DNA of 64,000 bases from Armatimonadota bacterium (GTDB taxonomy: Bacteria > Armatimonadota > Fimbriimonadia > Fimbriimonadales > Fimbriimonadaceae): positions 186,001 through 250,000 of the forward strand of contig JADFMN010000004.1 in assembly GCA_022563855.1 (NCBI GenBank). The letters run 5' to 3'. Positions 798 through 61,310 of this stretch are shown piece by piece. Position 1 is the first letter of the stretch. Every line of letters begins with the position of its first letter. The notes under the pieces are model-generated. The model saw only the letters and a list, made by a program, of their open reading frames with translations, was not told where the DNA came from and searched no databases. The position numbers and the translations under genes were made by a program.

Positions 798-1439
798 ATG
801 CGAAAACTCATCCCGATCATGCTGTTAGCGGCCTCATCGCTCGCCGTCGCTCAAGGCGGAGACCAGAACGAAGCCACCGACGTATCGATTGCTGCCGAGA
901 CAGGCGTGGTTACGATCGCGTCGAAGGGGGCGGACGTGCGAAATGTGCTGTACGACCTGTTCACGCAGAGCAAGAACAACTTCGTGCTCGAGGCGAACAT
1001 CCGGTTCATTCTGTACCTGTCGCTCACCGGCGTCGAGTTCGAAGAGGCTTTGAACATCGTGTGCACCGTGACGAGCCTGGAGTACGAACTCGATAACGGC
1101 ATCTACTTCATTGGAAAGAAGAAAGTCGGTTCAGGTCCGTTGCCCAAACGCGATTCGCGGCCGAAACCGCAGGCAAAGCGTGGAAAATTGACCTCTGCAG
1201 AGCTTCAAAAGCATTTGACAACGAGGTTCATGAGGGCCGACTTGCGCAAGGTTTACGAGTCGTTTTCAGAGCAGACCGGCGTCGAGATCATAGTCGACGC
1301 AAACGTACCGATGTACAAAATCGACGCTTTCCTGATCGATACCTCGCTGGAGTACGCCCTGGACGTCTTGGCTAGAGCCACACAGCTGAAGTACACGCTC
1401 AACGACAACAAGCAGATCGTCATTTCGAAGAAATCCTAA
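798..1439 (+). CDS. Exported protein with two STN/secretin-N-like repeats
   Basis: 213 aa with a signal peptide, cleavage likely after LAVA (residue 18). Two repeats (about 29-104 and 131-213) each follow the pattern of secretin/TonB short N-terminal domains: a strand, then 'DVRNVLYDLF' or 'DLRKVYESFS', a hydrophobic strand, 'FEEALNIV' or 'LEYALDVL', and a final hairpin ending in I.I.KK. Such domains normally precede a secretin pore or a TonB receptor barrel, but here no barrel follows, so the protein stands alone in the periplasm. A good ribosome site (GAGGAAAC) precedes the ATG. It probably works with the upstream anti-sigma-like protein. The exact function is unknown. Confidence 0.6.
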   Translation: MRKLIPIMLLAASSLAVAQGGDQNEATDVSIAAETGVVTIASKGADVRNVLYDLFTQSKNNFVLEANIRFILYLSLTGVEFEEALNIVCTVTSLEYELDNGIYFIGKKKVGSGPLPKRDSRPKPQAKRGKLTSAELQKHLTTRFMRADLRKVYESFSEQTGVEIIVDANVPMYKIDAFLIDTSLEYALDVLARATQLKYTLNDNKQIVISKKS

Positions 1440-16951: not shown

Positions 16952-17030
16952 ACAATGCACCGGGAGGGCAAGCGTCCCCGCGAGCCGCGGGTGCAGGACA
17001 GTCTCACTCTCGACTTCCCCGTCGACGGTC

Positions 17031-17277
17031 GTCCTCCTGGGCAACCTTAGCTGCTGGGTAATCCTTGCAAGCAGTCCCGAGCTGAACCCCCTCCCTAGCC
17101 CTCCCCTCAGGAGGAGAGGGGATTCCTTCCAACCATGGAGGGCCGTCCTCCTGGGCGACCAAAGCTGCTGGGTAATCCTTGCAAGCTGTCCTCGACCGAA
17201 CCCCCTCCCTAGCCCTCCCCCAGGGGAGAGGGGATTCCTGCCAACCATGGAGGGCCGTCCTACTGGGCGACGTTAGC
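17031..17277. repeat. Tandem 112-114-bp intergenic repeat (2 copies plus a partial third)
   Basis: Units begin at 17031, 17145 and 17257 with GTCCTCCTGGGC or a near match, followed by GCTGGGTAATCCTTGCAAG and a CCCTCCCTAGCCCTCCCC stretch facing GGAGAGGGGATTCC. The rest of the 16952-17468 gap holds no gene. Parts of the unit recur at 37.6, 43.1, 44.8 and 61.0 kb. Confidence 0.8.
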
Positions 17278-29571: not shown

Positions 29572-29865
29572 TTAATCCTCCCTCGAGAAAATCCGATGGC
29601 GAACTACATCGTCACTGATGCCCAGAAGGCGTGCCAACTCCTTCGGAACCTGGGTGTCGCACTCAAATTCCATCAGGATGTAGTTGCCTTCTGTCAGGTC
29701 GTCGATTTCAAACGCTAGCTTGCGCTTGTCCCACTTTTTCGCAGAGTCGACTGACCCGCCGTTGGTCTCGACGACCTGCTTGAAGCGGTCGGCGATCTCC
29801 TGCACTTGATCGTCGGTCAAGCTGGGCTTGACGATGTAAAAGGCCTCGTATTTTGCCGTATTCAT
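29572..29865 (-). CDS. rpsF: Ribosomal protein S6
   Basis: 97 aa from the ATG of MNTAKYEAFYIVKPSL (a 9-residue upstream extension is possible but not needed). The S6 fold is evident in YEAFYIVKP, AKKWDKRKLAFEI and GNYILMEFE. S6 binds S18 on the 30S platform. The usual rpsF-ssb-rpsR-rplI operon is broken here: pgi/pmi follows ssb, and rpsR and rplI are not in the window. A hairpin lies in the leader. Confidence 0.95.
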   Translation of the reverse strand: MNTAKYEAFYIVKPSLTDDQVQEIADRFKQVVETNGGSVDSAKKWDKRKLAFEIDDLTEGNYILMEFECDTQVPKELARLLGISDDVVRHRIFSRED

Positions 29866-29888
29866 TGCTCTCTCTGGTCTCAAACTCA

Positions 29889-29910
29889 GCACCGCCTCGA
29901 AGGGCGGTGC
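29889..29910 (-). promoter_or_regulatory. Leader hairpin upstream of rpsF
   Basis: A perfect 8-bp stem (GCACCGCC / GGCGGTGC) with a 6-nt loop, 24-45 nt before the rpsF ATG. Position fits an autoregulatory r-protein leader, but I could not match the known S6:S18 motif with confidence. Confidence 0.45.
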
Positions 29911-30038
29911 AGAGAGCTCGTTTGCAGTCGAAGATGATACCAGGAAGATCCGTGGGCCATAGGTCGATTACTTGGAACTACTGGAGCCACCAGGCCGTAG
30001 GGACGTGAGAGACGAGTCAGTCTCGGAGAAAATGATCG

Positions 30039-31682
30039 ATGTTGATTAAGCATAGGATTCGAGTGGGAATCGCGGCTCTGGCAGTTGCCGCCATAGCAGG
30101 AATAGGCGCAAACGTCGCCCTTGGCAGCGCGACGCAAGCCTTGGCCAAGGAGGGCCAAGAGAAGACTGCGAAGGCAGTGTGCTCGCTGGACGGCAAGGCG
30201 AAGCGTTTTGAAAACGCCGAGGCCGCAAAGGTCTTCGCCTGGCTCCGCGAAAACGGGGTTCGTCTCGCCATCGAGGACGAGCACATCTATACTGGCGCTC
30301 TGCTCACCCTCGCACTGGACACCGGCAAGCCAGCAACGGCAGTGGCAAAGTTGGCGAGCGCCCTGCACCTCCAGCCGACCAAGCGCGGAGAGTACTACGC
30401 TCTAGTCCGCGGCATCGGGTCCGAGTCGGCCTCGGAAACGCTCGGCGGAGAGGACTTTGCGCGCGGTTACGACCAGGAGAACCCTTGGCGGGCTTGGATC
30501 GAGCAGCAGCGCAAAGGTGAGGATGGCGACCAGAGATGGCGTATCTACTCAGACGATGAAGAAATTGACATCGAAGTACTGATGCAGGAGTTCGAGGGCT
30601 TCGACTTCGATTTCGAGTTTGACTTTGACTTCGACGTCGATGACTTCATGCAGGAGCACGGCGACTTCGACTTCGACTTTGACTTCGAGGACTTCATGGA
30701 GGAGCACGGTGGCTTCGACTTCGACTTTGACTTCGAGGACTTCATGGAGGAACACGGTGGCTTCGACTTCGACTTTGACTTTGACTTCGATGAGATGTTC
30801 GACAGCGAGTTCATGTCGGAGTGGGAGTCTGCAGACGGGACGTTCGGGTTCCTGCAGTCGAGCGACCAGGTCGCCAAGAGATTGCAAGAGGCGAACGAGA
30901 AGATGAAGAACAAGCTCTCCAAGGAACAGATTGCGGAGCTCGCCGAAATTCTGTCGGAGATGCCTCACCTCATGGTCGTGCCACAGATGGGCCGTCTTGG
31001 CAGGGGACTCGAGCTCGGCGAACTCAGAGAACTGATGGGCGAGCGCGGCGAGCTCTTGAAACGGCTAGAACTAGGTGCTGGCGAACGTAGCGAACTCTTG
31101 AAGAGACTCAAAGAGGGCGGTGGCGCACGGGGCATAATCCTTGGGCGCGACGGTCAGATGCTTGAATTGAAGCATCTCGAGGAAATGCAAGGTGACGTGT
31201 CCAAGGCGATGGCTGAGGCCATGAAGCACCTGAAGCTGCACCTGGGCGAGCGCGGCGAGATGAGCAAGGAGATCGAGCGTGCGATGAAGGCACATGTAGA
31301 GGCGCTAAAAAACCTCTACGGCGAAGAGGGCGCTATGAAGCTCGATGTTGAGCGCGCGATGAAGGCCCGCGAAGAGGCGATGAAGGAGCTCAAGAGGCAC
31401 TTCGGCGAGGGCGGCGACTTCAGCAAGCGGATGGAGAAGATGCAAGCCGAGCTCAAAGAGAAGATGGCTGGCGTCGCGATCAAGCTTGAGAACCTGAAGG
31501 AGTTCATGAAGAGCCTGACCCCCGAGCAGAGGAAGCTCGCCAAGGAGCAAGGCTATCTCAAGCTCTCAGACCTGACCAAAGAGCAGCGAAAGCTGCTCGG
31601 CGGTTTTGACGATCGTGACGAGCTGCACATGAAGTTCAGGATCGATGACGAAACGATCGTCATCAAAGGCGACGGTAAATAG
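30039..31682 (+). CDS. Exported protein with (Phe-Asp)n tandem repeats and long charged helices
   Basis: 547 aa. A hydrophobic N-terminus (about 9-28) is a likely signal or anchor. Residues 45-140 form a small globular domain with one Cys. Residues about 187-255 contain alternating F-D runs (FDFDFDF) in 16-residue units separated by EDFMEEHGG. Residues 285-510 are highly charged, mostly helical Glu/Lys/Leu-rich segments (ERGELLKRL, RAMKAHVEALKNL), and the protein ends with a DDETIVIKG strand. In a beta strand one face would be all Phe and the other all Asp, so the block could self-assemble or bind cations. No known family was recognised. A terminator follows. Confidence 0.6.
   Translation: MLIKHRIRVGIAALAVAAIAGIGANVALGSATQALAKEGQEKTAKAVCSLDGKAKRFENAEAAKVFAWLRENGVRLAIEDEHIYTGALLTLALDTGKPATAVAKLASALHLQPTKRGEYYALVRGIGSESASETLGGEDFARGYDQENPWRAWIEQQRKGEDGDQRWRIYSDDEEIDIEVLMQEFEGFDFDFEFDFDFDVDDFMQEHGDFDFDFDFEDFMEEHGGFDFDFDFEDFMEEHGGFDFDFDFDFDEMFDSEFMSEWESADGTFGFLQSSDQVAKRLQEANEKMKNKLSKEQIAELAEILSEMPHLMVVPQMGRLGRGLELGELRELMGERGELLKRLELGAGERSELLKRLKEGGGARGIILGRDGQMLELKHLEEMQGDVSKAMAEAMKHLKLHLGERGEMSKEIERAMKAHVEALKNLYGEEGAMKLDVERAMKAREEAMKELKRHFGEGGDFSKRMEKMQAELKEKMAGVAIKLENLKEFMKSLTPEQRKLAKEQGYLKLSDLTKEQRKLLGGFDDRDELHMKFRIDDETIVIKGDGK
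30642..30785 (+). repeat. Three 48-bp tandem repeats inside the Phe-Asp protein gene
   Basis: Units start at 30642, 30690 and 30738 with GACTTCATG(C/G)AGGA, each followed by CTTCGACTTCGACTTTGA-type DNA. The third unit is extended by extra F-D codons. The copies differ at only a few bases. Confidence 0.85.
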
Positions 31683-31713
31683 GCTTCGAATCCATTAGCA
31701 AATCCACGAGTAG

Positions 31714-31744
31714 CGGGGGCGTCGAAAGGCGCTCCCGTTCTTTT
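31714..31744 (+). terminator. Terminator of the Phe-Asp protein gene
   Basis: An 8-bp stem (CGGGGGCG / CGCTCCCG, one G-T pair) with an 8-nt loop is followed by TTCTTTT. It overlaps the stop of the convergent HD gene by 2 bp. Confidence 0.75.
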
Positions 31745-32435
31745 ACTCCAAATGGGTGCCGTTGACGGTGAGTCCGAAGTCGTAGCCAACGAAGGTCGCC
31801 GCGCGCCGGCACATCACCATGCGGCTAATGAAGATCTCGAAATACTCCATCACCGACGCGAATTTTGTGTCGATCTCCAGCCTGAGCGAGATGCGCTTCT
31901 TCTCGTTGTTCATTTCGACCCGGCTCTTCTGCACCGCGAAGTTGACCCTGTCGTGAATGTCGAACGTCTCCCGCAGCGGGTTCTGAACGCGGGAGCTGTG
32001 GACGTCGCTCTTGTCGGCGATGATGACTGCGGCGGACATGACGCTCACGGCCTCGCCGTACGCCTCCTCGTGATTGCCGATCGCACCAAGGATCGGGGCG
32101 ATCTCCTGCGGCGGCATGCCCATCTTGTCCAGTATGCGAAACGCTATGTTCGCGCCTGACGAGGGGTGGTTTTCGCGGCTGATGACGTTTCCGATATCGT
32201 GCAGGTAGGCGGCGATCATTCCGAGCTCGATGTCCCTTTGCGGAGCGCCGAGGTTCTCCATGATGTAACGCGTGATGCTGCTGACGATGCCGACGTGTCG
32301 GTGTCCGTGCTCGGTGTAGCCCATCGACATCATGACTGCGTTCGCGCCGACGATCAGCTCCTGCACCCTGTCGTTCGCCTTGACGTCCTTGAGCGTGACT
32401 GGCGCGGCGGCTTGGGTCTCGGTTTTGTCGGGCAT
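31743..32435 (-). CDS. HD-domain phosphohydrolase
   Basis: 230 aa. The first His is in EHGHRHVG, the HD doublet in AYLHDIGN, with later GNHEEAYG and the C-terminal Asp region (IIADKSDVHSSRV). This fits a metal-dependent HD hydrolase of nucleotides or phosphodiesters. The C-terminal 60 residues form a beta-sheet region of unknown use. A TATACT hexamer lies 8 nt before the ATG, fitting a leaderless transcript. Confidence 0.82.
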   Translation of the reverse strand: MPDKTETQAAAPVTLKDVKANDRVQELIVGANAVMMSMGYTEHGHRHVGIVSSITRYIMENLGAPQRDIELGMIAAYLHDIGNVISRENHPSSGANIAFRILDKMGMPPQEIAPILGAIGNHEEAYGEAVSVMSAAVIIADKSDVHSSRVQNPLRETFDIHDRVNFAVQKSRVEMNNEKKRISLRLEIDTKFASVMEYFEIFISRMVMCRRAATFVGYDFGLTVNGTHLE

Positions 32436-60760: not shown

Positions 60761-60811
60761 CGGGTCGCACCGGAACCCCCATCCCTCAACACTGCGAGTG
60801 TTGAGGGTTTT

Positions 60812-60862
60812 GTTCGGGTTTGTTCGGATTTGTTCGGATTGGTTCGGGTTGGTTCGGATTGG
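60812..60862 (+). repeat. TTCGG(A/G)TTGG-type hexa/octamer array
   Basis: Repeated GTTCGG units (TTTGTTCGGGTTTGTTCGG then GGTTCGGATTGG) in plus orientation. The opposite orientation appears at 61223-61310. It is part of the 666-bp gap 60761-61426, which has no credible gene. Confidence 0.75.
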
Positions 60863-60871
60863 GAGGGCGAG

Positions 60872-61109
60872 CACGTCATCCTGAGTGGATCGAAGGACCT
60901 CGCGAGCCGGTGTTCCACGGTCGGACTCGCAGGAATTGTCCGCGCGCTTGCTCGGAATCCCTCCCCCGGCCTATTGCTTGACGTTCGCAACAAACTCTCG
61001 TGGTCGGGGGAGGTTAGGAGGGGGCCGGAACAACCTTGCGATTCTCGTGTCTGGAATTTGACGTTCGTCGCTCGCGAAAGCTAAGGTCGCCCGGGAGGAC
61101 GACGCTCCA
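60872..61109. repeat. Three dispersed repeat elements in series
   Basis: CACGTCATCCTGAGTGGATC at 60872-60900 (reverse of the 43174/44774 element), CCTCCCCCGGCC...GGTCGGGGGAGGTTAGGAGG at 60960-61023 (copy of 37606-37671), and the GTCGTCC element in reverse at 61077-61109 (copy of 44811-44850). Confidence 0.7.
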
Positions 61110-61116
61110 CTGGGAA

Positions 61117-61165
61117 GGTGCGAGGTGCGAGGTGCGAGGTGCGAGGTGCGAGGTGCGAGGTGCGG
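61117..61165 (+). repeat. Seven tandem copies of the 7-mer GGTGCGA
   Basis: Six exact units and a final GGTGCGG. It is a pure heptamer array, so copy number is likely variable. Confidence 0.9.
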
Positions 61166-61167
61166 AA

Positions 61168-61310
61168 CCAACCCGAACACAGTTCTCAGTTGGCTGTTGG
61201 CAGTTGGCAGTTGGCAGTTTTCCGAACCAACCCGAACGAACCCGAACCAACCCGAACCAACCCGAACCAATCCGAACGAACCTGATCGAACCCGATCGAA
61301 CCCGAACCCC
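61168..61310 (-). repeat. Inverted copy of the ACTGC/TTCGG element with CCGAAC array
   Basis: 61168-61226 is the reverse complement of 36854-36905 with a few extra 7-mer units (GGCAGTT). It continues as (A)ACCCGAACCA units to 61310, in the opposite orientation to the array at 60812-60862. Confidence 0.75.

Follow-up and report, generated by a model that had tools for sequence, protein, structure and literature searches.

The gene at positions 30039..31682 (forward strand) of the window, that is, the whole 64,000-nucleotide stretch of DNA that was analysed, encodes a predicted exported protein of 547 residues in which a known docking domain, found within an unnamed family, is accompanied by an unusual lineage-specific repeat. 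The gene was recognised as an open reading frame with homologues in the order. The family, which combines an STN domain with a conserved C-terminal domain, is previously uncharacterised and order-wide. In detail, a profile of the C-terminal domain retrieved members from 64 of the 113 genomes of the order and from six genomes elsewhere in the phylum, nearly always as one copy, and the sequence-only reading, which knew of no family like this, is corrected on this point. An uncharacterised family is thus exposed in more than half of the order's genomes, with an STN docking domain, a C-terminal domain without counterpart in Pfam or among solved structures, and a spacer which repeatedly invents new repeats. 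The repeat of the window protein, made of alternating Phe and Asp residues (FD), is a natural counterpart of a peptide created de novo in materials science.

The explanation that is preferred here, tentatively and at somewhat less than even confidence, is that the repeat expanded in one lineage, within the linker of an envelope protein with an STN domain. The end domains would dock, and the FD segment would be conditionally sticky. The architecture and homology of the protein, its repeat and the coding constraint are well supported by the data, and it is export, docking and the behaviour of the repeat that are inferred.

The gene, its surroundings and its family

A likely ribosome-binding site, GGAGA, was read from the sequence at 30025..30029 (forward strand), 9 bases 5' of the ATG. 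Residues 1-37 (30039..30149, forward strand) resemble a signal peptide when inspected by eye, with KHRIR, a hydrophobic core and ALA followed by KE, and hydrophobic leaders also start the homologues. Downstream, a hairpin of 12 pairs resembling an intrinsic terminator and followed by CTTTTACTCC is located at 31712..31739 (forward strand; z -4.6), suggesting that transcription ends there.

The neighboring gene on the 5' side (29572-29892) is rpsF and the one on the 3' side (31743-32435) encodes an HD domain, both as judged by sequence. As both are on the opposite strand, the gene stands alone, and its genomic neighbors give no pointer to an operon, partner or pathway. It also has no match in the plasmid collection. 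In several genera the gene adjoins the same PGI-like/ssb/rpsF or HD-domain/deacetylase genes, and this conservation of housekeeping neighbors supports orthology.

A search with the protein alone showed homologues in 24 of 61 genomes, and a scan for distant homologues with a tighter alignment gave six loci. The named contigs with family members are labelled Armatimonadetes and Fimbriimonadaceae. The family is also carried by two contigs labelled as Methanoregulaceae archaeon and Herminiimonas MAGs (L085 and L087), which are probably mis-binned or mislabelled, since the family they carry is one of Armatimonadota. In one genus (g5; genomes G005 and G034, loci L011/L100 and L020/L099) the C-terminal domain is kept and most of the STN domain seems to have been lost. 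No paper joining Armatimonadetes and the STN domain was found in the literature collection searched.

The Phe-Asp repeat and its spacer

The FD repeat region comprises residues 188-251 (30600..30791, forward strand), as determined by Tandem Repeats Finder, its anatomy and codon analysis. A first FD block (residues 188-193) precedes three units of 16 residues (48 bp) with the consensus FDFDFDF(E/V)DFM(E/Q)EHG(G/D). On the forward strand, unit 1, FDFDFDVDDFMQEHGD, covers residues 194-209 (30618..30665) and unit 2, FDFDFDFEDFMEEHGG, residues 210-225 (30666..30713), followed by unit 3 (residues 226-241, 30714..30761), which is again FDFDFDFEDFMEEHGG and lies one silent base from unit 2. The terminal run, (FD)5, at residues 242-251 (30762..30791, forward strand), equals the core of a designed gelling peptide.

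The open reading frame and its 48-bp repeat are as the sequence-only reading had described them. A 48-bp period was found independently by Tandem Repeats Finder (3.5 copies, 91% matches, 30614-30781), and the 14 occurrences of FDF compare with a mean of 0.18 over 10,000 shuffles, none of which gave more than 4. The number of copies carries the uncertainty of a draft assembly. Of residues 187-256, 31 are acidic and 23 are Phe, and basic residues are absent. When the repeat alone was compared with the PDB, a single weak hit family was obtained (E 0.043).

The 36 Phe and Asp codons of the four runs differ from (TTCGAC)n nine times. Some of these differences (TTT codons) were copied by duplication, so that the independent events are fewer, roughly seven, and a P-value for them serves only as a guide, but their direction is clear. 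All nine are at codon position 3; eight are synonymous and one replaces D by E. On the evidence of these codons the alternation of Phe and Asp looks selected.

The search for homologues of variable repeat number, which had been suggested beforehand, was productive. The orthologue of the sibling species has a single FD run (QDFDFDFDFEM) at the corresponding place, and the window species has four. In this gene, FD runs are confined to the window genome and the sibling across the order's 113 genomes. Every homologue examined outside the genus is without them; by the criterion of the sequence-only reading, homologues lacking the repeat, it does not form the core of this protein.

The uniqueness of the FD motif was examined by DNA pattern. 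(FD)3F was found in 5 of the order's 113 genomes. Only in G000 and G001 does a main open reading frame translate it as FD, both times in this gene; in G003 and G019 the longest open reading frame is on the opposite strand. (FD)4 was found in 2 of 291 genomes of the phylum, and the second case (G076) is a Val-Glu repeat read in antisense. In viral contigs FD runs are placed within unrelated proteins (26 of the 80 loci examined), and short FD runs alone are therefore not diagnostic.

Residues 275-476 (30861..31466, forward strand) form a charged, variable region that is predicted to be helical with low confidence (AlphaFold2 pLDDT <50 for most of it). The length of the spacer and its repeat content vary among the homologues. 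Spacer self-matches over 20 residues, with 12 to 20 identities, occur in 17 of the 29 proteins measured, and shuffles reach 10 at most. The repeat usually differs by genus, for instance KLHKEGAFKFTPEQIEKMKA in the sibling species, QEAMKARDMNPEMQKKIESA in G040 and EHMKALQGLKLDEKH in G095. The FD repeat is best read as one lineage-specific expansion within this fast-changing spacer.

Elsewhere in the window, short tandem repeats are clustered at 60809-61308 (TTTGTTCGGA x5, AGGTGCG x7, CAGTTGG and CCGAACCAAC x8.7), and a unit of 114 bp is present in about 2 copies (91%) at 17030-17271.

The main rival explanation is that the FD repeat is a neutral or nearly neutral product of slippage in a disordered spacer, in which only the length and acidity would matter and the alternation would serve no function of its own. 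It is a serious possibility, though ranked below the preferred one. The spacers of different genera do differ in length and motif, unrelated repeats are present in many members, and the homologues examined outside the genus do without FD runs. Disorder is also what AlphaFold2 predicts, and the single base between units 2 and 3 fits slippage as well. However, nine third-position departures, eight of them silent, are not expected of free drift, and the alternation is common to the sibling species; both weaken the neutral explanation. The same third-position bias weakens pure hexanucleotide slippage.

Possible association of the Phe-Asp segment

The preferred explanation, a repeat expansion in the linker of a docking envelope protein, can be outlined as follows. 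The gene would encode an exported, single-gene envelope protein composed of an STN/N0 domain, a fast-evolving spacer and a C-terminal domain of helix hairpin and beta hairpin. In this genus an FDFDFDF segment, amphipathic and anionic, would have arisen in the spacer, and in the window species it would have been lengthened by tandem duplication of the 48-bp unit, the alternation being kept by selection. Both end domains would anchor the protein to envelope partners. The FD segment would act as a flexible, strongly acidic and sticky tether, disordered at low calcium, and neutralisation of its Asp faces by divalent cations or protons may lead to self-association via stacked Phe faces.

The likeness to self-assembling amphipathic peptides, which had been noticed from the sequence, proved apt. 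Residues 242-251 are the designed (Phe-Asp)5 core. The designed peptide is a random coil in solution and turns into beta-sheet with Ca2+, and gels made from it are sensitive to pH and calcium (PMC9078708). The window protein has exactly (Phe-Asp)5 at these residues and three more FD runs upstream. On the other hand, the designed peptide is a free molecule with Pro caps that is used at high concentration (PMC9078708), whereas the FD runs of the window protein are natural, short, flanked by Gly or Glu and internal to a protein of 547 residues.

The strand form that had been envisaged for the repeat does not appear in the structure prediction: AlphaFold2 gives coil and short helices at DFMEEH, with no strands and with very low confidence. 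AlphaFold2 cannot model ion-induced assembly; the prediction is compatible with strands induced by ions and is neither proof nor disproof of assembly. Based on the identity of residues 242-251 with the designed (FD)5, an ion-switched association is plausible, and so is a conditional self-assembly of the FD segment, which can be checked with one synthetic peptide (GGFDFDFDFEDFMEEHGGFDFDFDFDFDEM). A more elaborate form of this idea is improbable at present. It supposes that the gene encodes a natural beta-sheet module which gels under the control of calcium or pH, held between the secretin-type docking domain and the new C-terminal domain, and that the repeat number tunes the strength of association among the envelope proteins.

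The terminal domains

Residues 48-126 (30180..30416, forward strand) comprise an STN or secretin N0-type domain, as determined by a held-out HMM, a profile and an AlphaFold2 model. Pfam STN matched 8 of 24 family members (best 3.4e-7) and gave no match on the window protein alone. A held-out family HMM, from which the window protein and its sibling had been left out, recognised the STN domain with an E value of 6e-12, and the family profile against the PDB matched the N0 domain of PilQ (4ar0, 3.9e-8). FecR_C of Pfam was matched by four family members.

In the AlphaFold2 model, calculated from seven input sequences, residues 45-125 have a pLDDT of about 70-85 and show the beta-alpha-beta-beta-alpha-beta fold of STN type. 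The best structural match is the signalling domain of PupR (Z 8.8, rmsd 2.1 A over 73 residues); domains of PilQ, XcpQ, FpvA and PupA were also matched, those of secretins and transducers with Z 5.5-7.4. In the sequence-only reading, the protein outside the repeat consisted of long charged helices. This holds in part, but not for residues 48-126 and 481-547, which are conserved folded domains.

STN/N0 domains serve as docking modules onto a partner protein in secretins, TonB-dependent transducers and FecR-type regulators. By its similarity in profile and fold to the STN/secretin N0 group (PF07660; PilQ N0 4ar0; PupR, FecR_C), the domain of residues 48-126 may have a docking role in this protein too. 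Unlike secretins, transducers and FecR, however, the window protein is without a secretin channel, a TonB barrel or an anti-sigma domain, and its STN domain is connected to a spacer with repeats and to a C-terminal domain that has no name, in a manner different from the known STN systems. In detail, Pfam found no secretin channel domain in the protein and no plug or beta-barrel of a TonB-dependent transducer, the remainder being helical or disordered in the model. The layout also departs from the FecR type, as only the leader precedes the STN domain and the neighbors are housekeeping genes, with no ECF sigma gene among them.

These features bear on a second rival explanation, which sees the protein as a relative of the FecR/TonB-transducer systems with a signalling or regulatory role; its STN domain would sense the condition of a partner in the outer membrane, and the remainder would pass the signal on. 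The best fold match being a cell-surface signalling domain (PupR), the four members with FecR_C and the fusion of the C-terminal domain to an M56/BlaR1 sensor peptidase in one genome are in its favor. Yet the adjoining genes, rpsF and the HD-domain gene, include no sigma factor, receptor or regulator, and neither an inner-membrane nor an anti-sigma domain was found in the protein, which makes a signalling role unlikely.

Further STN-bearing proteins are encoded close by and in the same genome. A small exported protein of 213 aa (window 798-1439, forward strand) seems to consist only of two tandem STN domains (Pfam STN 1.8e-7, FecR_C 5.6e-6). About 13 others (L204-L216; 650-890 aa) include true secretins and exported paralogues without Pfam matches, some of them clustered (C8:69-76 kb, C12:33-36 kb and C2:341-344 kb). 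Exported proteins of 600-770 residues in this genome (L204, L206 and L209 are examples) have a signal-like leader and an STN-type N terminus according to the family profile, and towards their C terminus they have LTxx(Q/R)-like stretches in common with the window protein. They differ in their large middle part without Pfam match, in their several clustered copies and in having no FD repeat.

The conserved C-terminal domain is located at residues 481-547 (31479..31679, forward strand), where SLTPEQ...GYLKLSDLTKEQRKLLG is followed by a beta hairpin; in the fuller form, SLTPEQRKLAKEQGYLKLSDLTKEQRKLLG precedes the hairpin. It extends over ~65 residues with the pattern SLTPxQ...GYL..DLTxxQ...LG, and Q497, G505, L507, L512 and Q516 are the same in all 24 members compared. 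This domain too was detected by the held-out HMM, with an E value of 6e-25, and its pLDDT, taken in blocks of ten, is about 64-92 in AlphaFold2. Nothing above threshold was found for it in Pfam or the PDB. Taken within the whole-protein model, it had no match by Foldseek or VIA-align.

The domain contains two LTxxQ motifs in a helical hairpin, and in this, as well as in its predicted export, it resembles the Spy/CpxP LTXXQ proteins (PF07813). A Spy/CpxP-like periplasmic chaperone or stress protein, in which LTxxQ and the charged helices would cradle clients and the FD runs would be client-like or client-binding, is the least probable explanation: Pfam LTXXQ does match, but only weakly (best 0.0022) and in 3 of 26 members over about 20 positions, the window protein scores 18.5 bits against a Pfam cutoff of 24.3, its motifs are only about 20 residues apart and followed by an extra beta hairpin, and no solved Spy/CpxP chain was matched.

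The fused form of the C-terminal domain (L091, G017:C2 about 282.8 kb) is found in one genome, where the domain comes after the M56/BlaR1 sensor peptidase (Pfam match 9.8e-32) in a single frame of 721 residues.
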